Below, piece by piece: positions 16,491 through 51,872 of a DNA stretch of 64,000 nucleotides; the stretch's first letter is position 1; each line of letters starts with the position of its first letter. The stretch spans positions 1,217,001-1,281,000 of the forward strand of contig OU744453.1 of the NCBI GenBank assembly GCA_916610825.1. Direction: 5' to 3'. Source of the stretch: Haliclystus octoradiatus (lineage: Eukaryota; Cnidaria; Staurozoa; Stauromedusae; Haliclystidae). Both the position numbers and the translations under genes were made by a program. The notes beneath the pieces were generated by a model. That model was given only the letters and a program-made list of their open reading frames with translations. It searched no databases and had not been told where the DNA came from.

Positions 16491-16743
16491 AAATGAATGT
16501 GTAGTCTTAATTGACTCCATTTTATTATTAGTATTTACGCTCTGTCAATCACTGGCATTGAGCACTATTATCTGCTGATAGACCACTATATGTCATTATC
16601 ATTTACTATGCTATTATCTATGAATTTATCCACATGCATTTATGATTTATCCATCGAGCAAAAGTTGAAAGATAATGCATCTTAAGTTTAGTCCATAATT
16701 TTCATCATTTGCATTAAATCATTAAGTTTTATTGATGTCTTAC

Positions 16744-16914
16744 CACATTGTTGTTTTCTACTGCACTTTGAAAATTCATATTCAACACCATCGCAGCCTG
16801 GTGATGCCGGTGGATGACATTCTCTTTGTCTCGTTGGCTTTCTATATTTCATACATTCGTGGGGTAAATGTGCAACACAATCATCTGACCATTCACTCCA
16901 TGAAGTCCAAATCA
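16744..16914 (-). CDS. Gene A exon: second-type TSP1 domain
   Basis: A 171-nt phase 1-1 exon. It has WTSWSEWSDDC, HECMKYRKPTRQREC and SPGCDGVEYEF, six cysteines and QQCG at the end. It is nearly the same as the gene B exon at 29037..29207 and matches gene C 47652..47822. Acceptor CTAAAG and donor GTAAG are intact. Confidence 0.85.
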
Positions 16915-17157
16915 CTTTAGAAAAGGATGGCGATAAAATATACAGATACATACATATATCTCAATAATGTTAATCCAAAATACCTAGGTAATCTGTTATC
17001 TATATCTATAACTTCTCCAAAAATTGACTGGGAATGAACTTCACTATAGTGATAATGTTTCTATAATCTTACTTTAAAATAAATAATATAATATGAGATA
17101 AGCACATGAATGTGAGAGTGCTTAATGTTTGTTGAAACAGGATTAGGCAAGAGCTTT

Positions 17158-17283
17158 TCCGTAACTCTGTTTTCACGCGTTTATTTTGCGATCAGATGCA
17201 GACGGAGACGATTTACTCTAGAATCAAGGTAAATCGTCTGATGATCGCAAAATAAGTGCGTAAAACTCAGAGTAACAGGAAAG
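17158..17283. repeat. Decayed Penelope-like inverted end pair
   Basis: TTTTGCGATCAGATGCAGACG and its partner CGTCTGATGATCGCAAAA form an imperfect inverted repeat with a degraded hammerhead core (GAAA changed to AAAA) followed by CTCAGAGTAACAG. Confidence 0.5.
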
Positions 17284-17337
17284 GCTGTTGCCTCGTCTTT
17301 GTTCATTTCTAAAATAAGAACGATAAATGTATATAGG

Positions 17338-17925
17338 CCAAAATAATTATAATAATGAGAAGGTCAAGAAAGACACATTCTTTGGTTGTATCTCCGAGTT
17401 TCACGTTTTAAACGATCATCGGACAACAAATACTAACTACAATTACAAACAACAATTAGTAACAACCAACGAGGACAGACATGGCAAGGCTTACATCGGA
17501 TTGACGGAAGGGCCATTCAAAGCACGCTACAATCAACACATGATGTCATTTCGAAACAAAAAAAATGAACACAAAACACAGCTATCAAAGTATGTCTGGA
17601 GGCTCAAGGACAGCAACACCGAAATAGCGTGGAGCCCTATATGTACCGCTGCGTCTTACTCGAAAAGATGCTACCTATGCCTTGCAGGAAAGCACTACAT
17701 CATTTGGACCTAAGGCAAATTATTAAATAAATGGTCAGAGTTGATTTCAAAATGCTGGCATGAAAATAAGTTTTACTTATCTAATTTTAAAACTGCTAAA
17801 ACTTAGCAATTTAGTTTGTGATTGTAGTTAGTATTTGTTGTCCGATGATCGTTTAATAAAATGAAACTCCGATTTACAACCAAATAATGTGTCTTTCTTG
17901 ACCTTCTCATTATTATAATCATTAA
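17338..17925. mobile_element. Truncated Penelope-like retroelement with inverted ends
   Basis: Left (17350-17426) and right (17829-17910) ends are inverted copies: AGAAGGTCAAGAAAGACACA, then GGTTGTA, a hammerhead-like core (CCGATGA, stem II, GAAAC) and TTTGTTGTCC. Between them lies a GIY-YIG endonuclease fragment. Penelope-like elements carry a reverse transcriptase plus a GIY-YIG nuclease; only the nuclease end remains. Confidence 0.75.
17455..17806 (+). pseudogene. GIY-YIG endonuclease fragment of a Penelope-like element
   Basis: Family blocks are clear: GKAYIGLTEGPFKARYNQH (the YIG part), FRNKKNEHKTQLSKYVWRLK, AYSKRCYLCLAGKHYII-like text, then after an in-frame TAA at 17711-17713 LLNKWSELISKC and HENKF. 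The nuclease nicks DNA to prime reverse transcription. The reverse transcriptase part is absent and the stop breaks the C-terminus, so the copy is dead. Confidence 0.8.
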
Positions 17926-18138
17926 CGCTCTGCTATTCATTAGCATTGAGCACTATCCAATTGCCAATATCAAGTTTTAATATTTCTAATATTATTGACA
18001 TCTAAAGTTTTTAGTAACAATTGTCTATACAGTATTACATACAATAATTTATTTATTCATCTGATAGGGGTAATGATCTTTTTGTTCTTGCATACTTAAG
18101 AAACTTAAAATATTTTAAAGTGTTATGCACTTTGACAC

Positions 18139-18363
18139 TGTTGTGTATACGACAGACACAAACCCTCCCGTTGGGTGCGTAATGAGAAAGGCTTGAAATT
18201 CACAAGCCGGAGCGACACAGTCCCAGAACCAGGGCGTGTATGTTTTATTCCAGGGCGTGATCTTCTGAAGCGAGGTTTTGAGAACGAGGAAATTATGACA
18301 CCAGTTATCACCATGTATGAAACGTTAGACATGGAACAACTAGATCAATGTTTTCAAACATGA
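18139..18363 (+). other. Unknown 75-codon open frame inside a gene A intron
   Basis: The frame is open from 18136 to a stop at 18361-18363, with no ATG near its beginning. It contains FTSRSDTVPEPGRVCFIPG and TPVITMYETLDMEQLD. The composition looks protein-like rather than random, but I do not recognise a family. It may be a relic of a mobile-element protein. Confidence 0.25.
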
Positions 18364-18511
18364 AACCTTACTCTGGGACGGAGTCAAATGTCGGCATTTT
18401 TAATCACATCAAAGTCATGATCACACGCTTGAGTTCCATATGCTCTCATGCGGCAGTCATTGATTAACTGTAAAATAGTAATATTATGATAATTTTATAT
18501 TGTTTAATAAC

Positions 18512-18676
18512 CTGGACAATCCTGAGTCTGACAAACCACTGTTTTATGGTAGCCTCCTTCGCAAGGAGATCCGTTACACAATGGACCAATACACTGTCTT
18601 TCCTGTTGTTTGATTCCACCTCCACAGGTCACAGAACAATTAGCAGCATCTTTCCATGCCGTCCATGTTCCATTCA
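18512..18676 (-). CDS. Gene A exon: TSP1 domain
   Basis: A 165-nt phase 1-1 exon. Reads TWTAWKDAANCSVTCGGG, RQC, CNGSPC and VCQTQDCPG, with the WxxW and CSVTCGGG signatures of a thrombospondin type-1 repeat. It is more divergent than the gene B and C repeats. Confidence 0.85.
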
Positions 18677-19629
18677 CTAAAACGATTAATCATTGGAACA
18701 AATCAATCTTTCATCAAATCTTTAAAGTAATAACATAATGAAAAATTACAGATAACAAAAAACGCTCAAGTTTCTCCTATTCTGTACCAAAGCGTTTTTC
18801 CATTCGATTATTGAGCACATTGAAATTTACAGGTCAACAAATATCTTTCTGCGTCTAGGTGGCATTTAAGCACTGTCAAGTTCATATGACATATTCGAAA
18901 GGGTAACATCAATCACCATCCCTGCTCCCAATTTTCTGATACCGTCATTATTACTCATTACAAGGCCGGTTATATATTTGAAGTCATATTGCACATACAT
19001 TGTTTAAATGAAAAATATATGATATGGCTTAAAATTTTGGGAGGGGTACCCCTAAAGTCCCTTGAGGGTAATTCGATATAAGCGCTGTATGGGGAGTTGC
19101 CATTTTTATGGGTACCATTTTGAAATCTACCTGGTTTGTCAAATTTATACCATGGGATACCTTCTGCGAAATTTTCTGGTGCCAGTGGTAAATCCGGCAT
19201 ATTTCATACCTTAAGGTGCCCAGAACGCTGATGTGAGAGGTGCTCAGTTGGCACATCAGCTATTCAACAAATTCAGTAATGGTTTAGTGTGTGTATCATT
19301 TCTAGAAAAACTTGCAATTTTGTGGACGGTGCTAGTAATTATCAAATGGAGCAGCCCACTACAAAAAAAAACCGATGAAGCCCATGGGAATTTCAAAAAT
19401 CTAAAAATAAATTGTTAATTTTTAATATTTTTTTCAAATTTTCTCTATTTCAAAATTTATTTTCCAAAATTTGCCATAAACTCTAAAAGGAACCCAAAAG
19501 GTTTAAATATCTGAAATTTCATAGCCTCAAAAGACTATTTCTGAGTTGGAACATGGACACAAAACGTGACACGTCCCTGCATAGCAGCAAATACGGGAGC
19601 TATCCCGGTGTAAAATTTACAGTCAAGGC

Positions 19630-27834: not shown

Positions 27835-28187
27835 TTATACAAATCTAAATGCACCATGAGGAATGTTGCATGATGGATAAGTAACGATTTCTGGTCCTGT
27901 TCCTCCATTGTAGACATGAATACACATGTTCGTTGCTGCCTGCAGGCGAATGTTGAAATCTGATAAATATGTTAATAGACTCATGGTAGTGCCACATGAT
28001 GTACTAAGGGTGAAATAAGAATGAGTAGTTGTTCCAAGTGCTAATATACATTGATTTGTACCACTTAAATAAAATCTATTATTTTCATACATATACACTT
28101 CTATGCATGGATACTGTGACACTACAACCATTCTTCCACTTGCAGTATCGAATTTCAAGCATCGTCCATAATGATGTTTGAGATGAC
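27835..28187 (-). CDS. Gene B last exon: Cys-rich lectin-like C-terminal domain
   Basis: Phase-1 acceptor TGATAG, stop at 27837-27835. Blocks in order: GRCLKFD, NNRFYLSGTNQCILAL, HSYFTLSTSC, TNMCIHVYNGGTGPEIV, YPSC. Three Cys-bounded segments suggest a ricin-type beta-trefoil, but the classical QxW motif is not visible, so this is a tentative call. Confidence 0.75.
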
Positions 28188-31100
28188 CTATCAAAAAGGT
28201 GAACAGCAGTATTAAAGCATCAAATGCAGATGGAATTAGTTTCAAGATGTAGAAATTGACACATCCGAAGCTGAATACTGTATAGGTGTTACTGGCATAA
28301 TAGAAAGTTGATAACCCATTTTCATTCATTGAAGGAAATAATTTTTCAAATTCGTTCAATGATAATCAATATGTAATCATAATTCTCTGTTTGATTATAT
28401 TGAAAAAAGTTCTTGATTCTGTTTTTGAAGTTGAATAGTCAATATTACATTCTTTCTAAATGTTGATAAAAATAGGCAAAACAATCTGTTCTATCTCAGT
28501 TCCAGTTCCTAAAACCAATCTTTCCAATAAATACTGTAATGAAGGCAATTCACAAGGCAGAGTCAAGGTGTTGAATATCTCAAGCAATAGAATCACTGCA
28601 AGGACAGCATTTTTAAGGAAAATGGTTTGACTCAGAAGTCGTAAAAGAAAAGTGTGAAGAAGATTAGAAAAACGCTAGTGTCCATATTTTTATAAATTAC
28701 AATGCCGTTATCTAAAGAAGGGATTGGACACGCAACGAATGTAAATGGGGAATAAAATGGACAAAATTTAGCCAAGCATTGTATTTGGAGTGTTAGTTAT
28801 TTCACCAAGAATTGCAGGTGTATATCTATATTGGTCGCTTGACTTCCCCAAGTGAAGTTTTACGCAATCATTCAGGCCTAAAGAAGCTGTTTATTTGGTG
28901 ATCCTGTTTGTATTGTTCCTGTAAGTTCATGTTTACTATTTGTTCATTTCGTGTCTTTGCTAAATCACCAGAGCTTGCTGCAGTACGTTCAGTAAGTGAA
29001 TTTACATTTATAATTACCAACTCGAGAATGCCTTACCACATTGCTGTGTTGAAGGGCACGTGAATTTATCATATTCAATACCATCGCAGCCTGGTGATGC
29101 TGTTGGGTAACATTCTCTTTGTCTTGTTGGCTTCCGATACTTCATACATTCGTGGGGTAAACGTGCAACACAATTATCTGACCATTCACTCCATAAAGTC
29201 CAAATCACTGAATAAAATAACATTGTTTTTATAATTTTACAAATTGCAATTCAATTTCAGAAGCTAATCAGAATCACGGATTGATCATCAGGATTATGGT
29301 ATATCATCTATCATCTATATAGTCATGCAAAGGATGGTAATAGCTATATTGTCTTAAACATCCATTTTTGTTACTTTAGAAAGAAATGGAAATTAGGAAC
29401 AAAACAAATCAGAGAGGAATGAGCCTTAAAATGCAAGCCAACTCATATCTCATGATGAGCATGGTAGTCAAATCTTTTGTAGCGATTTTGAAATTTTTAT
29501 CTTGAATATTTTTGGTATGAAAATGATGCAGAAATCTTTGGTATGATAATATAAGTCAATCTGAAAAGAAAAAACATTAAAAATGTGACACCGGAACTAG
29601 TGCCAGGCTCTTTTCGTTCAAATGAATGGGTCTTCTTAAAAAGGTCGGGTGTAAAATTGCTTTACATAAATCTTAATTATTTTTGCTGATAATTGTACCT
29701 TGACATATTTGCTTGGATTCTACCGTGTGTTTTTCTTGATTGGTGAAGAAACAAAAAAGTTGTGGTGTTTTGAAGTTTCAAAAAGCAGTCACGCTTCAGC
29801 TGTTTTAGAAAGTTTCTAAACATCTGATTGATTAACTTTTTAGTATCGTCTGTATATTGGTTGTATTTTGAAACGTAGATTTTTAGAATAAAGAAGCGGT
29901 TGTTTTGTCATTGAGAATTTCTTGATATAGTTATATCCGTTAAAATAAGAACTTCAATTTGCAATCTTCAACGTCAATTTGCACAGAAGAAAACCACAAT
30001 TGAATGTTTGATAGCGTGACCCCATAATTTACAATATCTAGCCTAAATTGAGCCCATAAATGGTAAGCCTCAATACAGCACATTACATATAACGAAATAA
30101 CCTTAGGATCAGATGAAATTATCTAAAGATGTCGATGATCAACTTGAAAGTTATTACCTGGGCATGGCTGGGTGTGGCATGATAAAATTTTTTCATCATC
30201 TCCAAAGCATCTAATTCCTCCATGATTTGGTGTTGGATTAGAACATGATCTGGTATCAGTTTGAGATCCTCCGCCACATGAAACTGAGCAAGGCCCATCA
30301 ATCCATGGAGTCCAGCCACCGTGAACTGAAATTGAGATTTTTATAAAGAGATGTCAAAAATTGAAATGTAATTAGTTAATGTATCAAATAATATATTTAG
30401 TTTTGATGGACAGTACATAAATGCAAGCAAATTACAATTGAATAATGTGCTCTTGCAGGCCTTTTATCTTTGATCCGGCAGCTACAGTTAGAATCAAGCT
30501 TCAACGAAGACCATCGTATCAAATATATGTTGACGTCATAATGACAAAAGCTATCGAAGGGGTAAAATCAACTAAGGTATGAGTTATCTTAAGGGAGCAA
30601 AATTGACTAGCTGGCTGTACGCGCTTAGAGTCACATGCATGTTGGTCGTTTGTATTGTTTCTGTGCTTGAAACCATGCTGAAACTGAAATTTGAAGCCAT
30701 GTCTGACGTTGATAATTGAATTTACCCTTAAGCTTAATTTAAATTGAGCTTGTAGCGACCGCTGGTCAATTTTTCTCCTTCAAATCGCATAATAATGTTA
30801 CATAAGATTGAATGAAAAAATATTCGGTTCTGATTGGCAGAGGAAAAATCATTATTCTCCAATTAACTGCTTCGTTTGATTATTGAAAAATCCAATTAGG
30901 TAGAGTACTCCCTAATCGAATTCAAACCGTATGATATATTTATATTAAGGTATATTTGAAAAACCTTGCTGAATTCTGGCTACTACCAAAGCAAAGCAAG
31001 GAACACTATTAAAAGGTAAAACATATTTTGAATTGAATCTGCTGTTGGGAGACGATCTGGGCAAGTAGCTCAATGGTATAGAGTGCTAACATTACATGCA

Positions 31101-34100
31101 GGAGACCGCGGCTCGTTTCCTTGTCGCTCACAAATTTATTGTCTCTGTGCGTAATTGTGATGTAATAAATTATTCCTTGCAATTTCAAATAATTGTCCAT
31201 ATAAACGCGTATGATAATATAAGTCAATCTGAAAAGAAAAAACATTAAAAATGTGACACCAGAACTAGTGCCAGGCTCTTTTCGTTCAAATGAATGGTCT
31301 TCTTAAAAAGGTCGGGTGTAAAATTGCTTTACATAAATCTTAATTATTTTTGCTGATAATTGTACCTTGACATATTTGCTTGGATTCTACCGTGTGTTTT
31401 TCTTGATTGGTGAAGAAACAAAAAAGTTGTGGTGTTTTGAAGTTTCAAAAAGCAGTCACGCTTCAGCTGTTTTAGAAAGTTTCTAAACATCTGATTGATT
31501 AACTTTTTAGTATCGTCTGTATATTGGTTGTATTTTGAAACGTAGATTTTTAGAATAAAGAAGCGGTTGTTTTGTCATTGAGAATTTCTTGATATAGTTA
31601 TATCCGTTAAAATAAGAACTTCAATTTGCAATCTTCAACGTCAATTTGCACAGAAGAAAACCACAATTGAATGTTTGATAGCGTGACCCCATAATTTACA
31701 ATATCTAGCCTAAATTGAGCCCATAAATGGTAAGCCTCAATACAGCACATTACATATAACGAAATAACCTTAGGATCAGATGAAATTATCTAAAGATGTC
31801 GATGATCAACTTGAAAGTTATTACCTGGGCATGGCTGGGTGTGGCATGATAAAATTTTTTCATCATCTCCAAAGCATCTAATTCCTCCATGATTTGGTGT
31901 TGGATTAGAACATGATCTGGTATCAGTTTGAGATCCTCCGCCACATGAAACTGAGCAAGGCCCATCAATCCATGGAGTCCAGCCACCGTGAACTGAAATT
32001 GAGATTTTTATAAAGAGATGTCAAAAATTGAAATGTAATTAGTTAATGTATCAAATAATATATTTAGTTTTGATGGACAGTACATAAATGCAAGCAAATT
32101 ACAATTGAATAATGTGCTCTTGCAGGCCTTTTATCTTTGATCCGGCAGCTACAGTTAGAATCAAGCTTCAACGAAGACCATCGTATCAAATATATGTTGA
32201 CGTCATAATGACAAAAGCTATCGAAGGGGTAAAATCAACTAAGGTATGAGTTATCTTAAGGGAGCAAAATTGACTAGCTGGCTGTACGCGCTTAGAGTCA
32301 CATGCATGTTGGTCGTTTGTATTGTTTCTGTGCTTGAAACCATGCTGAAACTGAAATTTGAAGCCATGTCTGACGTTGATAATTGAATTTACCCTTAAGC
32401 TTAATTCAAATTGAGCTTGTAGCGACCGCTGGTCAATTTTTCTCCTTCAAATCGCATAATAATGTTACATAAGATTGAATGAAAAAATATTCGGTTCTGA
32501 TTGGCAGAGGAAAAATCATTATTCTCCAATTAACTGCTTCGTTTAATTATTGAAAAATCCAATTAGGTAGAGTACTCCCTAATCGAATTCAAACCGTATG
32601 ATATATTTATATTAAGGTATATTTGAAAAACCTTGCTGAATTCTGGCTACTACCAAAGCAAAGCAAGGAACACTATTAAAAGGTAAAACATATTTTGAAT
32701 TGAATCTGCTGTTGGGAGACGATCTGGGCAAGTAGCTCAATGGTATAGAGTGCTAACATTACATGCAGGAGACCGCGGCTCGTTTCCTTGTCGCTCACAA
32801 ATTTATTGTCTCTGTGCGTAATTGTGATGTAATAAATTATTCCTTGCAATTTCAAATAATTGTCCATATAAACGCGTATGATAATATAAGTCAATCTGAA
32901 AAGAAAAAACATTAAAAATGTGACACCGGAACTAGTGCCAGGCTCTTTTCGTTCAAATGAATGGGTCTTCTTAAAAAGGTCGGGTGTAAAATTGCTTTAC
33001 ATAAATCTTAATTATTTTTGCTGATAATTATACCTTGACATATTTGCTTGGATTCTACCGTGTGTTTTTCTTGATTGGTGAAGAAACAAAAAAGTTGTGG
33101 TGTTTTGAAGTTTCAAAAAGCAGTCACGCTTCAGCTGTTTTAGAAAGTTTCTAAACATCTGATTGATTAACTTTTTAGTATCGTCTGTATATTGGTTGTA
33201 TTTTGAAACGTAGATTTTTAGAATAAAGAAGCGGTTGTTTTGTCATTGAGAATTTCTTGATATAGTTATATCCGTTAAAATAAGAACTTCAATTTGCAAT
33301 CTTCAACGTCAATTTGCACAGAAGAAAACCACAATTGAATGTTTGATAGCGTGACCCCATAATTTACAATATCTAGCCTAAATTGAGCCCAGAAATGGTA
33401 AGCCTCAATACAGCACATTACATATAACGAAATAACCTTAGGATCAGATGAAATTATCTAAAGATGTCGATGATCAACTTGAAAGTTATTACCTGGGCAT
33501 GGCTGGGTGTGGCATGATAAAATTTTTTCATCATCTCCAAAGCATCTAATTCCTCCATGATTTGGTGTTGGATTAGAACATGATCTGGTATCAGTTTGAG
33601 ATCCTCCGCCACATGAAACTGAGCAAGGCCCATCAATCCATGGAGTCCAGCCACCGTGAACTGAAATTGAGATTTTTATAAAGAGATGTCAAAAATTGAA
33701 ATGTAATTAGTTAATGTATCAAATAATATATTTAGTTTTGATGGACAGTACATAAATGCAAGCAAATTACAATTGAATAATGTGCTCTTGCAGGCCTTTT
33801 ATCTTTGATCCGGCAGCTACAGTTAGAATCAAGCTTCAACGAAGACCATCGTATCAAATATATGTTGACGTCATAATGACAAAAGCTATCGAAGGGGTAA
33901 AATCAACTAAGGTATGAGTTATCTTAAGGGAGCAAAATTGACTAGCTGGCTGTACGCGCTTAGAGTCACATGCATGTTGGTCGTTTGTATTGTTTCTGTG
34001 CTTGAAACCATGCTGAAACTGAAATTTGAAGCCATGTCTGACGTTGATAATTGAATTTACCCTTAAGCTTAATTTAAATTGAGCTTGTAGCGACCGCTGG

Positions 34101-37100
34101 TCAATTTTTCTCCTTCAAATCGCATAATAATGTTACATAAGATTGAATGAAAAAATATTCGGTTCTGATTGGCAGAGGAAAAATCATTATTCTCCAATTA
34201 ACTGCTTCGTTTGATTATTGAAAAATCCAATTAGGTAGAGTACTCCCTAATCGAATTCAAACCGTATGATATATTTATATTAAGGTATATTTGAAAAACC
34301 TTGCTGAATTCTGGCTACTACCAAAGCAAAGCAAGGAACACTATTAAAAGGTAAAACATATTTTGAATTGAATCTGCTGTTGGGAGACGATCTGGGCAAG
34401 TAGCTCAATGGTATAGAGTGCTAACATTACATGCAGGAGACCGCGGCTCGTTTCCTTGTCGCTCACAAATTTATTGTCTCTGTGCGTAATTGTGATGCAA
34501 TAAATTATTCCTTGCAATTTCAAATAATTGTCCATATAAACGCGTATGATAATATAAGTCAATCTGAAAAGAAAAAACATTAAAAATGTGACACCGGAAC
34601 TAGTGCCAGGCTCTTTTCGTTCAAATGAATGGTCTTCTTAAAAAGGTCGGGTGTAAAATTGCTTTACATAAATCTTAATTATTTTTGCTGATAATTGTAC
34701 CTTGACATATTTGCTTGGATTCTACCGTGTGTTTTTCTTGATTGGTGAAGAAACAAAAAAGTTGTGGTGTTTTGAAGTTTCAAAAAGCAGTCACGCTTCA
34801 GCTGTTTTAGAAAGTTTCTAAACATCTGATTGATTAACTTTTTAGTATCGTCTGTATATTGGTTGTATTTTGAAACGTAGATTTTTAGAATAAAGAAGCG
34901 GTTGTTTTGTCATTGAGAATTTCTTGATATAGTTATATCCGTTAAAATAAGAACTTCAATTTGCAATCTTCAACGTCAATTTGCACAGAAGAAAACCACA
35001 ATTGAATGTTTGATAGCGTGACCCCATAATTTACAATATCTAGCCTAAATTGAGCCCAGAAATGGTAAGCCTCAATACAGCACATTACATATAACGAAAT
35101 AACCTTAGGATCAGATGAAATTATCTAAAGATGTCGATGATCAACTTGAAAGTTATTACCTGGGCATGGCTGGGTGTGGCATGATAAAATTTTTTCATCA
35201 TCTCCAAAGCATCTAATTCCTCCATGATTTGGTGTTGGATTAGAACATGATCTGGTATCAGTTTGAGATCCTCCGCCACATGAAACTGAGCAAGGCCCAT
35301 CAATCCATGGAGTCCAGCCACCGTGAACTGAAATTGAGATTTTTATAAAGAGATGTCAAAAATTGAAATGTAATTAGTTAATGTATCAAATAATATATTT
35401 AGTTTTGATGGACAGTACATAAATGCAAGCAAATTACAATTGAATAATGTGCTCTTGCAGGCCTTTTATCTTTGATCCGGCAGCTACAGTTAGAATCAAG
35501 CTTCAACGAAGACCATCGTATCAAATATATGTTGACGTCATAATGACAAAAGCTATCGAAGGGGTAAAATCAACTAAGGTATGAGTTATCTTAAGGGAGC
35601 AAAATTGACTAGCTGGCTGTACGCGCTTAGAGTCACATGCATGTTGGTCGTTTGTATTGTTTCTGTGCTTGAAACCATGCTGAAACTGAAATTTGAAGCC
35701 ATGTCTGACGTTGATAATTGAATTTACCCTTAAGCTTAATTTAAATTGAGCTTGTAGCGACCGCTGGTCAATTTTTCTCCTTCAAATCGCATAATAATGT
35801 TACATAAGATTGAATGAAAAAATATTCGGTTCTGATTGGCAGAGGAAAAATCATTATTCTCCAATTAACTGCTTCGTTTAATTATTGAAAAATCCAATTA
35901 GGTAGAGTACTCCCTAATCGAATTCAAACCGTATGATATATTTATATTAAGGTATATTTGAAAAACCTTGCTGAATTCTGGCTACTACCAAAGCAAAGCA
36001 AGGAACACTATTAAAAGGTAAAACATATTTTGAATTGAATCTGCTGTTGGGAGACGATCTGGGCAAGTAGCTCAATGGTATAGAGTGCTAACATTACATG
36101 CAGGAGACCGCGGCTCGTTTCCTTGTCGCTCACAAATTTATTGTCTCTGTGCGTAATTGTGATGTAATAAATTATTCCTTGCAATTTCAAATAATTGTCC
36201 ATATAAACGCGTATGATAATATAAGTCAATCTGAAAAGAAAAAACATTAAAAATGTGACACCGGAACTAGTGCCAGGCTCTTTTCGTTCAAATGAATGGG
36301 TCTTCTTAAAAAGGTCGGGTGTAAAATTGCTTTACATAAATCTTAATTATTTTTGCTGATAATTATACCTTGACATATTTGCTTGGATTCTACCGTGTGT
36401 TTTTCTTGATTGGTGAAGAAACAAAAAAGTTGTGGTGTTTTGAAGTTTCAAAAAGCAGTCACGCTTCAGCTGTTTTAGAAAGTTTCTAAACATCTGATTG
36501 ATTAACTTTTTAGTATCGTCTGTATATTGGTTGTATTTTGAAACGTAGATTTTTAGAATAAAGAAGCGGTTGTTTTGTCATTGAGAATTTCTTGATATAG
36601 TTATATCCGTTAAAATAAGAACTTCAATTTGCAATCTTCAACGTCAATTTGCACAGAAGAAAACCACAATTGAATGTTTGATAGCGTGACCCCATAATTT
36701 ACAATATCTAGCCTAAATTGAGCCCAGAAATGGTAAGCCTCAATACAGCACATTACATATAACGAAATAACCTTAGGATCAGATGAAATTATCTAAAGAT
36801 GTCGATGATCAACTTGAAAGTTATTACCTGGGCATGGCTGGGTGTGGCATGATAAAATTTTTTCATCATCTCCAAAGCATCTAATTCCTCCATGATTTGG
36901 TGTTGGATTAGAACATGATCTGGTATCAGTTTGAGATCCTCCGCCACATGAAACTGAGCAAGGCCCATCAATCCATGGAGTCCAGCCACCGTGAACTGAA
37001 ATTGAGATTTTTATAAAGAGATGTCAAAAATTGAAATGTAATTAGTTAATGTATCAAATAATATATTTAGTTTTGATGGACAGTACATAAATGCAAGCAA

Positions 37101-40100
37101 ATTACAATTGAATAATGTGCTCTTGCAGGCCTTTTATCTTTGATCCGGCAGCTACAGTTAGAATCAAGCTTCAACGAAGACCATCGTATCAAATATATGT
37201 TGACGTCATAATGACAAAAGCTATCGAAGGGGTAAAATCAACTAAGGTATGAGTTATCTTAAGGGAGCAAAATTGACTAGCTGGCTGTACGCGCTTAGAG
37301 TCACATGCATGTTGGTCGTTTGTATTGTTTCTGTGCTTGAAACCATGCTGAAACTGAAATTTGAAGCCATGTCTGACGTTGATAATTGAATTTACCCTTA
37401 AGCTTAATTCAAATTGAGCTTGTAGCGACCGCTGGTCAATTTTTCTCCTTCAAATCGCATAATAATGTTACATAAGATTGAATGAAAAAATATTCGGTTC
37501 TGATTGGCAGAGGAAAAATCATTATTCTCCAATTAACTGCTTCGTTTGATTATTGAAAAATCCAATTAGGTAGAGTACTCCCTAATCGAATTCAAACCGT
37601 ATGATATATTTATATTAAGGTATATTTGAAAAACCTTGCTGAATTCTGGCTACTACCAAAGCAAAGCAAGGAACACTATTAAAAGGTAAAACATATTTTG
37701 AATTGAATCTGCTGTTGGGAGACGATCTGGGCAAGTAGCTCAATGGTATAGAGTGCTAACATTACATGCAGGAGACCGCGGCTCGTTTCCTTGTCGCTCA
37801 CAAATTTATTGTCTCTGTGCGTAATTGTGATGTAATAAATTATTCCTTGCAATTTCAAATAATTGTCCATATAAACGCGTAACTGCTGTTCAGTCCCTCC
37901 TTCCCATGTGAACATGAGCTCATGTTTTCTACAGTACATTATGAAGTAAAAGAAAATAGCATCTTATATTGCAGAAGTTATTTTGTTATGTAGAAATATT
38001 CTTTCAGGCAATCTCAAAAATAATGTTCATGTTTGCCTTTGACATTTCAGCTTACCTGGGGGATCCACAGAACATATATCTTTCATCTGTTAAAATAAAT
38101 AGATTGATAGACTGATAATTTGATTTGAACAAACAAATTCTTGATCAACGTCTTTATTAAAATGCCATATATAATTCCAGCATGATCATTAGTAGCTTAT
38201 TTTGCAATACAAATAGGGATCAATGGATGAGGTTTACCGTCTGACATGTTCATCTATTTATTTCTATAGTTATCCCGTAAGCAAACTTATGAGGGATTAT
38301 TTCAGAGATTCTTCAAATAAAAGGCTTTATGGGTTTATGATAACTTACATGATTATGAAACGTTAACGACAAAGAAAATATCTATTTACAAAACAATTTT
38401 CAAAATTATCCTTAATTTTTGATAAATTGCCATCCGACAATAATAAAAATAATGGTGCTACCTAGCAGTTCCGTTTTTCTGATCATGGGAAGGCAACTTT
38501 ATGTCTGATGTTACACGATTTACCGTATTCGTAACCAACCAAAGGCTATCAAGCAAACTTACTATTATAGCCCTTTTCACACTACACACATTTAACCCGG
38601 GTTCGACCCAGTTAAGCTAACCAGGGTTAGTTTTGTTTTGTTCACACTAGCTCTTGTGAAACAAGGTCAAACTAGGGTCAGCTAATGCATATAAAAGAAT
38701 CCGACTTCACGTTTTTAATAATTCGTATTTCTTTCATATTAAAAACAATATCCGATAAAAGCTTACAAAATTGCCAGAAATGCATTACATTTCAAAAATA
38801 GAAGCTGTTTCGATAAAACAATTTTGAAAAATCGTGTTTACTGGCTTTTTCAGCATTACTGAAATATACAACATAAATTAAAAATAATTGCAGAAATTCT
38901 TGATAATGATATTCTTTTATACTTTCTCGACTAGAAAGTGTTGAAATTTGATGTTCAATAACCTGTTTTAAAAGCATGTTTATCTCATCTAATGCTATTG
39001 CCCATGCGCATGTAAAAAACTAACCCAGGTTTGACCCTAGTTTGCATTCACACTACAACTAACCCAGATCGAACCCATTTTAACTAGAGCGAACCCACCT
39101 CATGAAGGTGGGTTAAAACTAACCCGGGTTAGCGCTGTTAACCCGGGTTAGTTGAATTCACATTACTCACTTAACCCGGAGTAAAAGTGTGCAGTGTGAA
39201 AAGGGCTTATATAACATTTCTTTGATAATGTATGTCTGCAATCAATATATATCCTACAATAAATAGCATCGACAAGAAATATACAATCGTAGAAAAAATT
39301 CTTCAGGTGCTTCTATTTATACTCTTTGGGAAATTCGATGCAGCTTGAGATCAATCGATTACAGTTATGGGAGGAAATTGATTCAATGAAATTAAAAGTT
39401 ACTGAAAGTTTAACAAAGAATAAATTCAAAGCAACAACATATAAGTTTGATACGAAGACAAGTGATGGAATAGACATAATTTTGCGACGTTTCCGTCATT
39501 ATAATAATATGAAATTTTCAAGCGATAAAATTAAAAGGATAGAAATTTTAAATATATGAGTATTTATATGTCTAACTTAGCTAATTTGCAATATGTGATA
39601 ACAAATTTTTAATATAATATGATAAAATACATAACGACGAAACGTCGCAAAATTACGTCTATTCTATCGCTTGTCTTCTTATCAAACCTATTAAGCAAAA
39701 AGTTTTTTTTATTAAACAACATAAAAGAAGAGCATTGTAATGTGTGCCAACTGGTGAATACAAGAAACACCAAGTCTACATACTATACAAATACAATAGA
39801 ATTGAAGCTATAAATAGTTAGTTAGGTTATAAATCATATGACAAAAACAAAAAAATTGGATAAATGGTCGCGATCTGTAATTGAGTTTTGAAAGTTTGTA
39901 AAGTTTCTGTTGGTCATATTGAATAATACAAATAAGATACTAACCTCTACCATTGTCGATGGTTCTGCCTCAAAGATACTTTCATATCCAATATGAGAAG
40001 AATATATTGGATTCCTTGCAAATAATAGATGGCAATTATTTTGAAGTTTCGTTTCTTTGAAAATCATGGCATCACACTTTCCATCCAGTTTACATTTATG

Positions 40101-40280
40101 TGCACAAACTGTAAGCGAACTACATGTAATAGAGAGAAGTAAAGTCATATTTTTTGAACTTCCAGATTGTGTGGGATATATTTGCCCTTCAGCGTTTTCA
40201 CTAGCTGAGGCACATATTCTACAATATCCACATTTTAATACAACATAAAAGACACATATTAGTAAAGTAAGTCTTTTCAT
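27835..40280 (-). CDS. Gene B: secreted PAN - five TSP1 - TSP1-like - lectin-like protein, 576 aa
   Basis: Nine exons: 40280..39945 (signal peptide and PAN), 38086..38056 (microexon), TSP1 exons 36995..36828, 35327..35160, 33660..33493, 31992..31825 and 30325..30158, second-type TSP1 29207..29037, lectin-like 28187..27835. All sites are GT-AG. Exons sum to 1731 nt, 577 codons with the stop, with no break. The protein should be secreted; PAN, TSP1 and lectin-like modules all bind proteins or sugars outside cells, but the ligand is unknown. The five TSP1 repeats are almost identical because their exons lie in a recent tandem array. Short frames of 66 codons overlapping these exons are out-of-frame shadows. 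The gene is head to head with gene C. Confidence 0.85.
28188..29036. other. Gene B last intron
   Basis: No additional exon or element recognised. An open frame runs from the lectin exon to 28359 but has no supporting paralogue match upstream of the acceptor. Confidence 0.5.
29037..29207 (-). CDS. Gene B exon: second-type TSP1 domain
   Basis: 171 nt, phase 1-1. WTLWSEWSDNC, HECMKYRKPTRQREC, SPGCDGIEY, TQQCG. Almost the same as gene A 16744..16914, which suggests A and B are closest relatives. Confidence 0.85.
29457..29850. repeat. Dispersed repeat R, gene B copy
   Basis: Related to 20726..21090. Everything from 29543 on is also the first part of array unit 1; the first ~86 bp occur only once in gene B. 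Confidence 0.6.
30158..30325 (-). CDS. Gene B TSP1 exon, array unit 1
   Basis: 168 nt, phase 1-1. GGWTPWIDGPCSVSCGGG, DTRSCSNPTPNHGG, RCFGDDEK, CHTQPCPG: six cysteines and the WxxW and CSVSCGGG signatures. Donor GTAATA, acceptor TTTCAG. Confidence 0.9.
30591..30782. mobile_element. MITE 'GGAGCAAAATTGAC' family, array unit 1 copy
   Basis: Ends AAGGGAGCAAAATTGACTAG and CTGGTCAATTTTTCTCCTTC are inverted. The same copy recurs in units 2-5 at the unit spacing. Confidence 0.65.
31059..31131 (+). repeat. tRNA-like segment in array unit 1 (repeated in units 2-5)
   Basis: GGGCAAG, then TAGCTCAATGG (A-box match), a central arm, GGCTCGTTTCC (near B-box) and TCGCTCAC. The anticodon arm pairs poorly, so this looks like a tRNA pseudogene or SINE head, not a working tRNA. 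Copies start at about 32726, 34394, 36061 and 37729. Confidence 0.55.
31825..31992 (-). CDS. Gene B TSP1 exon, array unit 2
   Basis: Appears identical in sequence to the unit 1 exon, including both splice sites. Confidence 0.9.
33493..33660 (-). CDS. Gene B TSP1 exon, array unit 3
   Basis: Appears identical in sequence to the unit 1 exon, including both splice sites. Confidence 0.9.
35160..35327 (-). CDS. Gene B TSP1 exon, array unit 4
   Basis: Appears identical in sequence to the unit 1 exon, including both splice sites. Confidence 0.9.
36828..36995 (-). CDS. Gene B TSP1 exon, array unit 5
   Basis: Appears identical in sequence to the unit 1 exon. In the transcript this is the first of the five. 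Confidence 0.9.
38056..38086 (-). CDS. Gene B microexon, 31 nt
   Basis: Acceptor TTAACAG, donor GTAAGC. Encodes MKDICSVDPP plus one base (phase 0 to 1). Gene C has NGICSVDLP at the same place, which confirms it. Confidence 0.8.
38570..39206. mobile_element. MITE-like element, 637 bp, TTATA direct repeats
   Basis: Ends GCCCTTTTCACACTACACAC and GTGTGCAGTGTGAAAAGGGC are inverted. Further AACCCGGGTT and CCGGGTTAG motifs are scattered in both halves. TTATA flanks both sides (38565-38569 and 39207-39211). It lies in the first intron of gene B and has no coding content. Confidence 0.8.
39207..39944. other. Gene B first intron, no gene seen
   Basis: A 77-codon open frame on the plus strand (39326..39559) shows no recognised domain. 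Confidence 0.4.
39945..40280 (-). CDS. Gene B exon 1: signal peptide and PAN/apple-like domain
   Basis: 112 codons ending in phase 0 at GTTAGT. Signal peptide TLLICVFYVVLKC, then ICASASENAEGQIYP and the domain core CAHKCKLDGKCDAMIF and NNCHLLFA. Genes C and D share CAS, QI(Y/F)P and the C-H-C-L-C-IF-NC spacing. Confidence 0.85.
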
Positions 40281-42465: not shown

Positions 42466-42511
42466 TTCGAGTCTATAGTCAAATTTGAAGTTGAGTTTCA
42501 AGGCCATTGAG

Positions 42512-42853
42512 ATGGAGAGGAGAATTTTTTCAACTGTTTCTATAATTGTCTTTTTCAATTACTTACAATATGGATTCGGAACATTTTGTGCATCAGCTAA
42601 TGACAATACACAGCAACAAATCTACCCGACGGATAATGGTGGGCAATTATCAATGGAATTGCATAAGACTGCATGTAATTCTCCGATGGAATGTGCTCAC
42701 AGGTGCAGATTGAACAACAAATGTATTGGGATAATTTTCAATGAATTTGCTAATGGGGATAATTGCCAATTTTTCAAGGCAGTAGAGGCGAAACTATCTT
42801 TAGCTGATGTTAACCAAAGCTTGGAAGAAAGTTCGCCTTCTGTGCTTGTAAAG
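42512..42853 (+). CDS. Gene C exon 1: signal peptide and PAN/apple-like domain
   Basis: 114 codons, donor AAG/GTATGA in phase 0. Signal segment RRIFSTVSIIVFFNY, then FCASANDN, QQIYP and core CAHRCRLNNKCIGIIF, DNCQFFKA. Confidence 0.85.
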
Positions 42854-45800
42854 GTATGAATAATAAATAGATAACATTTCATTTTGGTAAATGAAACAAT
42901 ACCCAAGATGGTATGCTGACTCATTTTGATTGATATCGAAGGCCAGTAAAATCATCAGCTATTACATTGTAACTTTTAAGTGTTTGTTTTCAATCATTAA
43001 ACTAGCTATAAATTTGATTCTATTTTCAGCTATTATTCCAATAATGAAGACAATGAAGCTTTAAAGAGTAAATATTGTTAATTTCTTTGAAGGACCTACT
43101 AAATTTCTATCTCCATCGTAAAATTCAACACTCTCCGAATTCAAACCTTTACGCCATTTCAAATTTGGAATTTGCAACTCTGAAACATTTTGAATTTTAA
43201 CAGCAACTACATAAGAATCTTCTGTCATGGCAACAAATGAAGCCGATTGGTTCAAAAGTGACGTTTTGAGCCTCAACTTTAATCGAGGCTCATAATTTTT
43301 ACAAGAATTCACCAAAACAGTGCAAAATAAACACCTAATATGTATATAGCTTACCGGAAAAATAATTCAATTTTGCATCAATCCACCAGACGTATTTTGC
43401 TCAATTAAGATAATTCTGGCTATATCGATAAATATAAAACTTTTTTGCATGCGGCATTTTGGCATATAGAAAACAAGATAACAATTAAAAATAGCTTGTT
43501 TCGAATTCTGAAGCTCTGAATGTCAACAAACAAAGTGCCACTGCAGAATGCTCATAGGAATGAAAAATTCAGCATTTTCTTAGTTGATAAGCTGTTACTG
43601 TTTTCCAAGCTTTATAATAATAGTAATAAAGTATTATTCTTGAAGGAAATATCTGATGCTTAACAACTGTTAACATTTTCCAAAGTTGAAAATCGACATC
43701 GCTTCGTATATGCATCTCCTGTGTGTAATAAGAATGACTTTAACGTGTTTGGTCTTCACAACCACACCACATATCTCACGTAATTGCCTTGTGGTACTAT
43801 TGCTCAAGCGCTTAGTCGGCCGATCCGATATTTCCTATAGATCGTTTATTACAGGCTTTGACTCAAATACCCCGCTTGATGTTCTTTTCATTTCATGATT
43901 TGATATTATTTCTTTTTTATTTTTACGTTAATAATATATGACGTTTTTTATAATTGAATTTGTAGGTGAATGGAATATGCTCTGTTGATCTGCCTGGTAA
44001 GTATATACTGTAGAATAATATATTTTTTGTTTTGTGAATGAAGCAGAATCAACATTCAATCCACCTTATTCTTGATCCGATCATATCAAAACTCAAATTC
44101 CATATGTACACTCTCTATACTATCTGTAAGGGTGTGATTTCACTATACAAGACAACCATCCAAATGTGTAATTTTCGTGCTGGTTAGGTATTCGATTTAC
44201 GCATCAAAGTCATCGAGTATGCCAAAATCCAGTACAGTCTATTGAACGTGACGTGATTCGATCGGAGTGTTCGTCAGCATTGAGCTATAGCGTATATATA
44301 CCAATAATCGATTCTGTTCACTTATTAGTCTGATTGCGCAATACTTACCTGGTACGATTCCTATCAATCCCTACTAATGCGTTTATTCTTCGCATTGTAA
44401 TCAGGTCTCATATTTTAATGAGTAAGAATATATTATTAAAGAGAACATTCGCGTCGCTGATGTTTGTACATATGCCATATTAGAGAAGCTACACAAGCTG
44501 TTGGCAATTAGAGTAAACAGATAATGATATTGTTAACCGATATTAAACTTCTTTATTCAAGATTTTTATAGCCAATTTTATGTCGTAATTCAGCATCACA
44601 TGTAACCCACAGATTCTCCATGCTGTAGCATATTCCTGGGAGCATATTCTTACAATTGATTAGATATATTATACATTGAATGAAGTGCAATATTTTATTT
44701 CCTATAGTTCATGGTGGATGGACATCATGGGTTTCTGGATCCTGCTCAATCTCTTGTGGTGGTGGCTCTCTGACGGAAATCAGATCATGCAATAACCCTA
44801 CACCAGAATATGGTGGCATTAATTGCTTTGGAGCATTGGAAAACACAGTGACATGTCAAACACAGCCTTGTCCAGGTAAATGCATATACTTCAACATAAA
44901 AATTATGCACATTGCCATACCTGGTGATATCATCTTAACTGTTAATGCATAACTATACATATGATACTAATCGTATATGTAGATTATACTGGTATATGCA
45001 GCTAGCCAATTTGAGAACTGCATAATGACTGCCATTTGAGACCAGAAAAATCGTGTCTGATGCGTGTGTCCAGTTTTCAGCTGTTTTTTTTATTTTTATA
45101 ATATTTGAATACATCCAGGTCGTGATTCAGAAATGCGTCTGAGTTTTAATCACACTTTTTGTTTCGAATGAAAAAGTATAATGTTTCAATTGTAATGAAT
45201 TTATGGATTAATCTTAACCACTCTTAACCGAGTGTCGAATTCGAATAGAATACATCAATGCAATTGAAAACATTTATAGTGATAATACGCACAGAGTCTC
45301 GGTGATCAAACCACGCAGTATCTGTTTCATGATCCTCAAGCTCCTTCTCCGTGGCGAACGTCAAACTTCTAATACTATTCTGAGGTATCTACTAGCCTTC
45401 AGCTAGCTCCTTCTCGGAAGAGCACTTTTCAAAGTTCTGATACGCTTCTGAGGTATCTACTGGCCTTCAGCTAGCCCCTTCTCGGTGGAGCACTTTCCAA
45501 ATTTCTAATGCGGTTCTGAGGTATCTACAGGCCTTCAACTAGCTCCTTTCTCCGCGGAGCACTTTCCAAACTTCTATTACGCTTCTGAGGTATCTACTGG
45601 CCTTCGGTTAGGTCTTTTTCGTGGCGCCCATGAGAAGGTGATACGCTTCACTTCTAAAATGTGCTGCCTTTTGAGGATAATCAATTTATTGAAAATCAGT
45701 CACATAAAAGATTTCAGAGCAATTGATTTTTCGACTTTTATCATTGATTCAGGTTCACGATGTTATCTTTTGGACCTGGACGTATTAGGGAAATTCTACG

Positions 45801-48542
45801 AAGACGGATTTTTCTTTCTGATGCTGGACTATCAGCTGGTCATGTTACAGTATTTCATTATAATAATTAATATTTTATTTTTGCCAGTTTTTCAAAATAT
45901 CCTGTCATATCAGAAAAATGAGTAGTTCAAGGAGCAAAACTGACCAGTGGACTCTACGTACACGGTTTTAATCACGTTATATTGCTGTTGTCATTCGTGC
46001 TGCTTCTGTTTCTGAGAAATTTATCACTTGAAGCCACGATTGCTGAAATATACATAGCCGGTTCCAAACTTCAGCTTAGTAATGGCCGCCGATCAATGTT
46101 TCCCTTTAAATGTGTAGGATTAAGTTATATGGTGATTTTGTTTGGTTTATTTATATAGTTAATGGTGCTTGGTCAAATTGGGCAGAAAGTGGTTCTTGTT
46201 CAGTGACTTGTGATGACGGAAATGTAGAAGAAGAAAGATCTTGCAACAGTCCTTCCCCGGAATACGGTGGCTTAGATTGTGCTGGATCGTCAACAAGAAT
46301 ATCATTGTGCAATATAGTAGAATGTCCAGGTAGAATATCACCCTTAAAATGTTGTAAAACCTCCATGAAATAGATACCAATTTAGATACCAGAAAATGAG
46401 ACATGTAATTTATATCTAGGACTAAATTTGGTAGAGTTTAATTTTTGGAATACAATTGTTAGTGCATTTGGGGAAACAGTTCCAAAAAAAATAAGCGATT
46501 TGAGTAAGGTTCAAAAGAAATACGTTCGTCGTCATCATGAATGTGAGGCCTAGAACCCGTACAGTGCCGCTTTTTAAACAGCTATATGACTATTACAAAT
46601 TGCAAAACTTCACCACGTAGTTATACACTATCAAACGCACCTCATCAAGCTCTGATATATGTTTCAATTTGTCCCTTCACGTTTCTGCACGAAAAAAATT
46701 CCCTTGTCCAAATTACCAAATCTTCAATCTTTCAGTATCTACACACTTACAAATTCCTTTTGATTTGGAACCAGTTGTTTGAGTTCAAGTTCATCTATTC
46801 GTAGTTGATGGTGCTTGGTCAAATTGGGCAGAAAGTGCTTTTTGTTCAGTGACTTGTGGCGGTGGAGTACTTCAGGAACAAAGATCATGCGACAGCCCTC
46901 CTCCGGAATATGGTGGCTTAGATTGTTCTGGGTCGATAGTAAGAACATCACCATGCAACACAGTAGCATGCCCAGGTATGAATACTTCGTTCAACAGCAT
47001 TAAAAATAATTTTCTGGTTTTAATAATAATGAATATTGGGAACAGCCGAGAGGTGAAAATCATTTGCTCCGGCGTCTATTTCATTTGATGCTTTTCTCAA
47101 GTTATCGTCAAACAATGTCCTCCTTTCGAGTGTTCCAATGCATTTTCAAATGCTTTTTTCATTGAGCCACGCATGACATGTCATAATAAGAAACATATAT
47201 AAGATGAACAAATATTCCTTAAGTATACAGTATATTTGCAGTTGATGGTCATCAATATACGATTTAATCGAAAAATGAACTATTTTTCTATTTAAAATCA
47301 AATTTATTCCTTGCATATCAATACAATATAATTTTAGAATAAAATTTACTAATGCACATGCTTCCTCAAATCTGTAGTCTATAAACAAATACGTTGCACT
47401 ATTCTGAGTAGCGGAAATTCTTGAATACCATTGATAAATTGCAATTGAGAGAGTAAGGCCTTTTACCGAAGGCAGCCGTATTATTCCTCTATTTCTAGAT
47501 GGATGGAATCAGCTATCATCAAAATGCCGATATCATTTATGATCAATAATGTTAAAATCAGTTTTATTATTCTTGGTTGTCATTGTAACATCAAATAATA
47601 CTTTTATTAATAGCACAACACAATTATTCTGATCTTTTCATGTGCTATTAGTGATCTGGACAGCATGGACAGTGTGGTCAGATGATTGTGAGGCACGAAC
47701 ACCACACGAATGTTTGAAATATCGCCAACCAACAAGGGAAAGATCTTGTGCTCCAACTTCCTCACCAGATTGTAATGGAATTGAGACAGATGTATTTACT
47801 TGCACATCACCGAATCCATGTGGTAAGAAATATATATAATAGTTGCCAAAGTATATATCCTGCATATTAGCATTCGGCAGGATTAAAACTGCACATAATG
47901 ATTGTCATCAGCAAGATTGTCCACCTTAAAATACACATACCATAATAGCCAATCACCGAGGTGGAAAAAGACTTTTAATTGATCCTGTTTCTGAATATAT
48001 GAGATATCAACAAAACGAAAAAGCATCCTCGTTTTATGCTGCCTTATTCACAACACCTTACATGTCATCTTATTCTCAACAGATGTGCCATAATAGGCCA
48101 GTTTATATTTCCAATGTTAAATAGTAACGTCAATTTACACGAATTACTACTGAATCATCAACTTCCATATTATCATTTATCTATAGGGTCATTGCAATCA
48201 TCATCAACTTGGAGAAATCGCTGTTTTACATACAATTATGATACATCAAAAATGGAAGTCCAATATGAATGCGATGAAAGCTATACCTATGAAAATGGAA
48301 GGTTGTATTTGAGTGGGACAAATATGTGTGTGAAAGCAACAGGATTTGCAATTCATTCTTATTTCATTCTTTCATTGTCATGCAGCGATAATTTCAGTCT
48401 TATAACACATCAAGCAAACTTTATCCTCAACATGAAGGAATCAAATACTATGTGTGTTCATATTATCTATGGAGGAACAGGTCCAGAAATTGTTACCTAT
48501 CCAGCTTGTGTAAGCCCTATCTTAGAATTCAAATTTATATGA
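42512..48542 (+). CDS. Gene C: secreted PAN - three TSP1 - TSP1-like - lectin-like protein, 469 aa
   Basis: Seven exons: 42512..42853, 43966..43996, 44708..44875, 46159..46329, 46805..46975, 47652..47822, 48187..48542. All are GT-AG; the PAN exon ends in phase 0 and every later junction is phase 1. They sum to 1410 nt, 470 codons with the stop. Order: signal peptide, PAN/apple-like domain, microexon linker, three distinct TSP1 repeats, second-type TSP1, Cys-rich lectin-like domain. Secretion and extracellular binding are inferred from the domains. The ATG at 42512 is chosen because the open frame upstream starts only with TTG. AATAAA at 48664 is the likely polyadenylation signal. This is the cleanest complete member of the cluster. 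Confidence 0.85.
42854..43965. other. Gene C first intron
   Basis: An 84-codon open frame on the minus strand (43315..43061) looks protein-like (SFVAMTEDSYVVAVKI, NSESVEFYDGDRNLVG), but I know no family for it. Otherwise nothing is seen. Confidence 0.4.
43966..43996 (+). CDS. Gene C microexon, 31 nt
   Basis: Acceptor TTTGTAG, donor GTAAGT. Encodes VNGICSVDLP plus one base; phase 0 to 1. Confidence 0.8.
44708..44875 (+). CDS. Gene C TSP1 exon 1
   Basis: 168 nt, phase 1-1: GGWTSWVSGSCSISCGGG, IRSCNNPTPEYGG, CFGALENT, CQTQPCPG. Closest to the gene B and D repeats. Confidence 0.9.
45335..45622. repeat. Minisatellite, about four 68-bp units
   Basis: Imperfect units built on CTGAGGTATCTACTGGCCTT and CTAGCTCCTTCTCGG, with a few point differences and small length changes. 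Inside an intron of gene C. Confidence 0.85.
45928..46108. mobile_element. MITE 'GGAGCAAAATTGAC' family, gene C intron copy
   Basis: AAGGAGCAAAACTGACCAGT at the left and CCGATCAATGTTTCCCTTT at the right are inverted relatives. It ends about 50 bases before TSP1 exon 2. Confidence 0.6.
46159..46329 (+). CDS. Gene C TSP1 exon 2
   Basis: 171 nt, phase 1-1: GAWSNWAESGSCSVTCDDG, RSCNSPSPEYGGLDC, VECPG. It has DDG where other repeats have GGG. Very similar to exon 3, so one is a duplicate of the other. Confidence 0.9.
46805..46975 (+). CDS. Gene C TSP1 exon 3
   Basis: 171 nt, phase 1-1: GAWSNWAESAFCSVTCGGG, RSCDSPPPEYGGLDC, VACPG. Acceptor TTCGTAG, donor GTATGA. Confidence 0.9.
47652..47822 (+). 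CDS. Gene C exon: second-type TSP1 domain
   Basis: 171 nt, phase 1-1: IWTAWTVWSDDC, PHECLKYRQPTRERSC, DCNGIETDVFTC, NPCG. Same Cys plan as gene A 16744..16914. Confidence 0.9.
48187..48542 (+). CDS. Gene C last exon: Cys-rich lectin-like C-terminal domain
   Basis: Phase-1 acceptor CTATAG, stop at 48540-48542. NRCFTYNYD, ECDESYTYENGRLYLSGTN, MCVKA, HSYFILSLSC, TMCVHIIYGGTGPEIV, YPAC. Shows the intact form of the domain that is frameshifted in gene A. Confidence 0.85.
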
Positions 48543-50600: not shown

Positions 50601-50959
50601 TTATACAAATGTAAATACAGCATGAGCAACGTTGCATACTGGATAATTAACGATTTCTGGATTCCTCCGACGAGTTCCTCCATTGAAGACATGAATACAC
50701 ATATTCGTCGATGCTTGCAGCTGAATATTGAAATCTGTTAGATATGTTAATAGACTCATGGTACTACTACAGGAATTACTAAGGGTGAAATAAGAATGAG
50801 TAGTTGTCTCAAGTGCCAAAATACATTGATTTGTTCCACTTAAATAAAATCTACCAGTTTTGTAATCGTATTCTTCGTTACACGTGTTCTGTACCTCCAT
50901 TCTCTGACTTGCATGGTTATATTTCACACATTTCCCATTAGCCGCGCTCTTCAAAACAC
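50601..50959 (-). CDS. Gene E last exon: Cys-rich lectin-like domain
   Basis: Intact from phase-1 acceptor ATAATTAG to the stop. GKCVKYNH, NTCNEEYDYKTGRFYLSGTN, CILALETTTHSYFTLSNSC, TNMCIHVFNGGT, YPVC. Closest to the gene B exon (HSYFTLS, FNIxLQAxTNMCIHV). Confidence 0.85.
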
Positions 50960-51578: not shown

Positions 51579-51872
51579 CTGAAAGAAAAATTGCAAATGT
51601 ATAGTGATTAAAGAAATTACGTCAACAAATAATTAATCTATTTTTTGTTGTTGGGAGAATAAAATTTAAATATACTTTAAACAAAATATAGAAACTTTCA
51701 CAAAATCACAATTAACTAGAGATTTTTTTAGAGATTTTTTTTCATGGCGGCAAGACGTGGCAGATAATGACTACATTTACAGTGATACTTCAGTAGAATA
51801 ATAGGGGTATAATAACTAGCAATTATAACTAAATCTTTCAAGTTTCTAAAGGATTTAAAAAATATAAGAAAC

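Follow-up and report, generated by a model that had tools for sequence, protein, structure and literature searches.

How does one gene come to carry the same exon five times over, with its surrounding intron sequence, and what happens to the protein when the number of copies changes? The question is raised by gene B, a gene of the staurozoan Haliclystus octoradiatus that encodes a secreted protein with thrombospondin type 1 (TSP1) domains. It lies in a stretch of 64,000 nucleotides from contig OU744453.1 (positions 1,217,001 to 1,281,000), referred to here as the window and numbered from its first letter. An earlier note, made from the sequence of the window alone, had described five near-identical tandem units in this gene, and the present analysis bears out that description: gene B contains a real and recent tandem array of exons. 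I consider a duplicated exon array that evolves by duplication, by exchange between units and by changes in unit number that are neutral to the reading frame to be the best explanation of the locus, with a probability of roughly 0.8.

Five units and the exon they carry

Comparison of the window with itself by BLAST gives a single array of 1667/1668-bp units, extending from 29541 to 37881, in which the sequence matches itself with 99.7-99.8% identity at distances of one to four times the unit length (1667-1668 bp). The five units stand head to tail inside gene B. The self-comparison and an alignment of the units place unit 1 at 29541-31208, unit 2 at 31209-32875, unit 3 at 32876-34543 and unit 4 at 34544-36210, and the alignment places unit 5 at 36211-37881, where the final GTA is the overlap with the right flank (no strand is assigned to the array or its units). 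The earlier limits, 29543-37879, were thus right to 2 bp. Five copies so long and so alike cannot have come about by chance.

Seven columns vary in the alignment of the five units, six by substitution and one by a 1-bp indel, while three further columns are produced by the overhang with which unit 5 ends and are not counted. Given on the coordinates of unit 1 in the window, the variable positions are 29593 (private to unit 2), 29628 (the indel, in units 2 and 4), 29695 (units 3 and 5), 30057 (units 1 and 2 against units 3, 4 and 5), 30740 (units 2 and 5), 30878 (units 2 and 4) and 31163 (private to unit 3). Two units differ on average by 3.8 in 1667 bases (0.23%), and none of the seven columns falls inside an exon of gene B. 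The five sequence words that had been quoted as markers of particular units were all found in exactly the units claimed.

The model of gene B was put together manually, with paralogues, splice sites and open frames as guides; it comes from genomic DNA alone and represents one haplotype of one animal. The gene lies on the minus strand and has nine exons, which encode 576 amino acids with no internal stop, and all eight introns are bounded by GT and AG. Exon 1 (39945-40280) encodes what appears by eye to be a signal peptide, followed by a PAN-like domain whose Pfam matches are weak (PAN_1, 16.6 bits against a cut-off of 21.4; MANEC, 19 against 25.5). It ends in phase 0, and exon 2 (38056-38086), a microexon of 31 nt, bridges it to the array exons, which start in phase 1.

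Exons 3 to 7 (36828-36995, 35160-35327, 33493-33660, 31825-31992 and 30158-30325) are the array exons, one to a unit. Each is 168 nt long and of phase 1-1, the sequence is the same in all five, and frame and splice sites are intact in every copy. The encoded domain passes the cut-off of Pfam PF00090 (exon 7; E 2.4e-10, 40.9 bits against 21.6). Because the exon has this length and phase, each unit gained or lost is one 56-residue TSP1 domain gained or lost with the frame kept. The phase had been read in this way before, and the gene model, with all five copies in place, does stay in frame. In structure, then, the array is a set of tandemly duplicated exons in one gene, a coding variable number tandem repeat (VNTR).

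Beyond the array, exon 8 (29037-29207) encodes a TSP1-like domain that has no Pfam match and is conserved in paralogues, and exon 9 (27835-28187) encodes the last domain and the stop codon. That C-terminal domain is predicted to be a beta-trefoil, most similar to CBM13 and further lectins of that fold: AlphaFold2, given an alignment of 22 last-domain sequences from the same genome, produces a beta-trefoil with a mean pLDDT of 93.2, and the best Foldseek matches of the model are to CBM13 and other trefoils (TM 0.85 to 1knl). By sequence, exon 9 matches no Pfam family at E ≤ 1, ricin-B included. Ricin-B domains have QxW repeats; the 117 residues of this domain, checked by eye, include no tryptophan and so lack them.

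Exchange between units and the first duplication

The earlier note had argued that the variable sites conflict with any single tree of the units, and the argument holds. Five columns are informative, and six of the ten pairs that they form show all four combinations, failing the four-gamete test. Exchange between units of gene B is therefore well supported, as far as five informative sites can carry it.

The odd/even pattern of variants had further been taken as a hint that a block of two units was duplicated. A model that begins with a three-unit array and copies a two-unit block (edge in columns 517-1200) requires four extra changes, two of them private and two adjacent in unit 4, and a single conversion tract would cover the adjacent two. 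Many models that add one unit at a time also require four, so that the count of changes is tied. The two-unit block may be called a fair reading of the pattern, favored only by the neighborhood of the changes in unit 4.

What the ends of the array have in common is slight. Left flank, internal junctions and right flank, compared by eye, have GTA in common and nothing more (29541-29543 and 37879-37881), and such a junction fits end joining or template switching better than recombination between long repeats as the source of the first duplication. A fragment of a foldback element (29458-29851, plus strand) extends across the left edge of the array, its first 83 bp falling outside, and for this reason units 2 to 5 carry the element shortened by 83 bp. 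In the three copies examined at other loci, the element is a palindrome that measures 684 bp and has arms of about 305 bp, and the copy in gene B keeps one arm and the center. A reading in which the array edge is also the end of a dispersed element was considered and dropped: the element starts 83 bp further left, and the query that suggested the coincidence had begun near the edge of the unit.

Another dispersed element is also present in each unit; it measures about 185 bp and, judged by eye, ends in inverted sequences of roughly 20 bp (30594-30778 in unit 1, limits approximate, no strand assigned). A tRNA-like piece had been reported in the unit, and this did not stand: Aragorn finds no tRNA in the window or in the dispersed piece, where A-box and B-box patterns were tried as well, and searches against Rfam give no tRNA, one of them yielding five sub-threshold matches (four to small nucleolar RNAs and one to a CRISPR repeat). 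In the place of the claimed piece is a short element with inverted ends.

From these features I infer a course of events in three steps. A 1.67-kb stretch with one TSP1 exon would first have been duplicated when a break or a replication slip joined two places that share GTA, the left one inside the foldback element. The site patterns support the next step, in which the near-identical units recombined by unequal crossing-over and conversion, so that units were added singly or in blocks and differences between them were evened out. Under the gene model, every gain or loss of a unit would finally add or remove one 56-residue TSP1 domain and leave the frame untouched, altering the length and valency of the TSP1 stretch between the N-terminal PAN-like and the C-terminal beta-trefoil domains. 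Proteins with such arrays probably grow and shrink by whole blocks.

Other TSP1-exon arrays and the rival explanations

Unequal crossing-over is recognized by diverged ends, homogenized middles and copied blocks. The genome (262 Mb in 33 contigs; locations outside the window are written with a C number for the contig before the position, the window itself being on C10) was searched with the array exon, considering the best 150 of 1088 candidates, and with a second and a third query, considering 150 of 1113 and 150 of 1171, respectively. At least five regular arrays of three or more TSP1-exon units can be read at the level of sequence: that of gene B and one each on C1, C4, C7 and C2. They range in likeness among units from fresh (99.8%) to old (about 88-90%), and those on C1, C4 and C7 each have a diverged end unit.

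The largest, at C4:19929120-19948535, has 20 TSP1 exons spaced at about 1013 bp, 14 of which share one protein sequence. Unit 1 is 91-94% and unit 20 91-95.5% identical to the rest, as compared to 95.3-100% among units 2 to 19. Units 13 and 16 are identical at ungapped columns, as are units 14 and 17, and units 12 and 15 are 99.2% alike, from which it follows that a three-unit block was copied. Incompatible pairs of informative sites number 368 of 1081. The array at C7:3340014-3343346 has nine TSP1 exons at a spacing of 395 bp. Here units 2, 4 and 6 are 98.7-99.7% identical to one another and units 3, 5 and 7 98.5-99.7%, with only 93-95% across the two sets, an ABAB order; unit 1 is 90-91% identical to the remaining units, and 52 of 210 informative pairs are incompatible. 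The ABAB order on C7 and the three-unit block on C4 give independent support to duplication by blocks. At C1:6247239-6267025 there are six units of 3295 bp, 99.4-99.7% alike. Thirteen changes there are found only in unit 1, an end unit, and four of the thirteen lie no more than 11 bp from the edge. The array at C2:23415448-23418080 has six TSP1 exons, the last four at a spacing of 320 bp. The sequences thus support the view that other TSP1 genes in the genome have undergone the process behind the array in gene B.

Simpler cases have two copies: 1620 bp repeated at 1606 bp (C10:5.15 Mb), 1103 bp repeated at 1604 bp and so only part of the spacing (C2:11.32 Mb), and 1120 bp repeated at 2999 bp (C10:2.84 Mb). 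The match list of the third query contains two more series, six TSP1 exons at a spacing of about 711 bp (C1:15410343-15414060) and three at about 274 bp (C4:19844104-19844819).

Are the copies used? In the C4 array, 14 of 174 exon columns vary, a smaller share than the 137 of 860 outside the exon (Fisher p 0.0065, a rough test given that the units are related), and the changes in the exon comprise 10 nonsynonymous and 5 synonymous. The lower variability of the exon suggests that the copies are used. A number of observations count on the other side. On C1 the exon shows no such reduction in variability (2 of 174 columns against 21 of 3128 outside it), and the invariance of the exon in gene B (0 of 168 against 7 of 1500, p 1.0) has no power and is no evidence. 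One exon of the C7 array is frameshifted, and unit 2 of the C1 array has a damaged exon in which a conserved cysteine of TSP1 is changed, so that not every copy need be useful. Also weighing against the proposed course of events are the small number of variable columns in gene B, only seven, a few of which short-read polishing could have altered, and the C1 array, in which the other end unit is not diverged and none of the three informative pairs is incompatible.

Of the alternatives, the one that survives best, though I judge it unlikely, draws on several of these observations: the extra units would be mostly passengers, their exons skipped or their product not working, and kept because they do no harm. 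It is compatible with the mechanism set out above. The damaged exons on C7 and C1 and the variability of the C1 exon speak for it; against it, the five exons of gene B keep their frame and splice sites, the C4 exon varies less than its flanks, and all 20 of the C4 exons are open.

Somewhat less probable again is a single burst of amplification by replication-based template switching, with the conflicting sites produced afterwards by repeated mutation or by polishing errors. The scarcity of variable sites and the microhomology at the junction would fit a burst, as would the absence of incompatible pairs on C1, and the 1-bp indel, itself an informative site, falls in a run of G. Six conflicting pairs of ten are nonetheless many, and a recount without the indel still leaves four of six; independent mutation would require repeated hits at several sites, and the block structure of the C7 and C4 arrays shows that blocks were duplicated later.

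HiFi reads are typically 10-20 kb long, longer than the 8.3 kb of the array, and in an assembly based on them an artefact is unlikely. The last alternative, that the assembler expanded a locus of one or two units or strung two haplotypes together, can accordingly be given very little weight: the units are indeed 99.7-99.8% alike and a mixture of haplotypes could yield the odd/even pattern, but the assembly, jrHalOcto1.1, was made by HiCanu from 68-fold HiFi data, polished with 10X reads, taken through purge_dups and manual curation and rated at a quality value of 56.6 (PMC9975415), the window contains no N, and comparable arrays on C7 and C4 have units that are clearly diverged. An alternate haplotype assembly of the animal (GCA_916610655.1) is cited in the same paper.

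The duplicated, exchanging exon array thus remains the preferred explanation. Whether TSP1 exons are uniquely prone to form arrays is a separate matter, and the claim that they are is only partly backed. Other domain families were compared by eye, looking for same-strand neighbors within 10 kb, in separate exons, with the same E-value, bit score and span. For PF00090 itself there are no such neighbors among the best 150 of 1432 candidates, and two long open frames, at C4:29.838 Mb and C1:35.072 Mb, each contain copies with equal scores within a single exon. Sushi gives one pair (C7:8253417 and 8257261) in all 73 matches (109 candidates), fn3 one pair, 8.6 kb apart, among the best 150 of 254, and EGF_CA none among the best 150 of 431, several neighbors sharing a bit score by coincidence, with a different span or E-value. 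The TSP1 lists, picked by likeness to the array exons, contain several regular arrays among the matches listed. The queries behind these lists are tied to the finding itself and TSP1 exons are far more numerous, and no enrichment is claimed.

Related genes, known systems and the meaning of the array

Gene B belongs to a cluster of related genes in the window with a PAN-like first exon and TSP1 exons and/or a beta-trefoil last exon: 16739-18677 (minus strand), gene B itself at 27835-40280 (minus), 42479-48539 (plus), 50604-50936 (minus) and 59922 to C10:1285757 (plus). Exons 1, 2, 8 and 9 of gene B have counterparts in neighboring genes. The microexon occurs in three of them, B, C and D (38056-38086, minus; near 43966-43996, plus; and 60851-60881, plus; the latter two counted by eye). 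The neighbor gene D has five diverged TSP1 exons, a TSP1-like exon 91% identical to its counterpart in gene B and a last exon 87-89% identical. A tree of the exons (21 rows, 16 of them different) puts the gene B copies together as a single identical group, separate from the exons of gene D. A partial second copy of the cluster lies at C10:2.834-2.847 Mb, and two genes at C8:10532000-10551800 and C8:10560700-10580500 have last exons that match the one in gene B at 78-79%. A six-sequence profile found no TSP1 exons in these two stretches; the number of TSP1 domains in the family may range from none to five.

Other features of the window lie apart from the array. Positions 1072-3725 contain two inverted copies, 90% alike, of part of a transposase-like gene, which I take to be Harbinger-like, with an open frame of 400 amino acids at 2526-3725. 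Open frames at 51816-56253 resemble by eye the endonuclease and reverse transcriptase of a long interspersed element (LINE). A 68-bp minisatellite occupies 45362-45605, and the two-copy duplication at C10:2.838 Mb has similar sequence (by eye) at its edge. In the mitochondrial genome, COX1 and COX2 are divergent neighbors, as in medusozoans.

To my knowledge, coding arrays of exons for whole domains have mostly been discussed from single cases such as LPA. The kringle-IV-2 (KIV-2) repeat of that gene has units of 5.6 kb, from 1 to about 40 in number, with two short exons per kringle (PMC11462820). It resembles the array of gene B in that highly homologous units, each a whole domain together with its introns, follow one another head to tail within one gene, and in build the two are the same kind of coding repeat. 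Gene B has units of exon plus intron in one gene, a symmetric unit and mosaic sites (five), all features of a coding VNTR. It differs from KIV-2 in having one TSP1 exon per 1.67-kb unit and a cnidarian host, and in that several other TSP1 genes of the Haliclystus octoradiatus genome also carry arrays.

Among cnidarian proteins, rhamnospondins end in a C-terminal SUEL lectin domain. The C-terminus of gene B has no Pfam match to that domain and is instead a predicted beta-trefoil, with a PAN-like N-terminus at the other end. The rhamnospondins of Hydractinia have eight TSR domains and have been proposed to bind microbes, according to a study of the anthozoan TSR superfamily, which presents a large cnidarian repertoire with new combinations of domains (PMC5446238). 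The word "exon" does not occur in the main text of that paper, and exon arrays are not treated there. Nor is there a report of TSP1-exon arrays in cnidarians among the matches listed from open PubMed Central papers.

It is possible, though I put it forward tentatively and at rather less than even odds, that the genome as a whole carries a set of coding VNTRs made of TSP1 exons, through which a whole class of surface or secreted recognition proteins would vary in length and valency from one individual to another. Equally tentative is the extension of that reading to many secreted TSP1 genes, some lectin-like, in which unequal exchange would expand, contract and homogenize the arrays. The range from fresh to old arrays, with their diverged ends and block patterns, makes unequal crossing-over directly readable in this genome. 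If copy number does vary between animals, then Haliclystus octoradiatus would offer a ready system in which to relate the number of repeats to recognition or adhesion by a secreted TSP1 protein.

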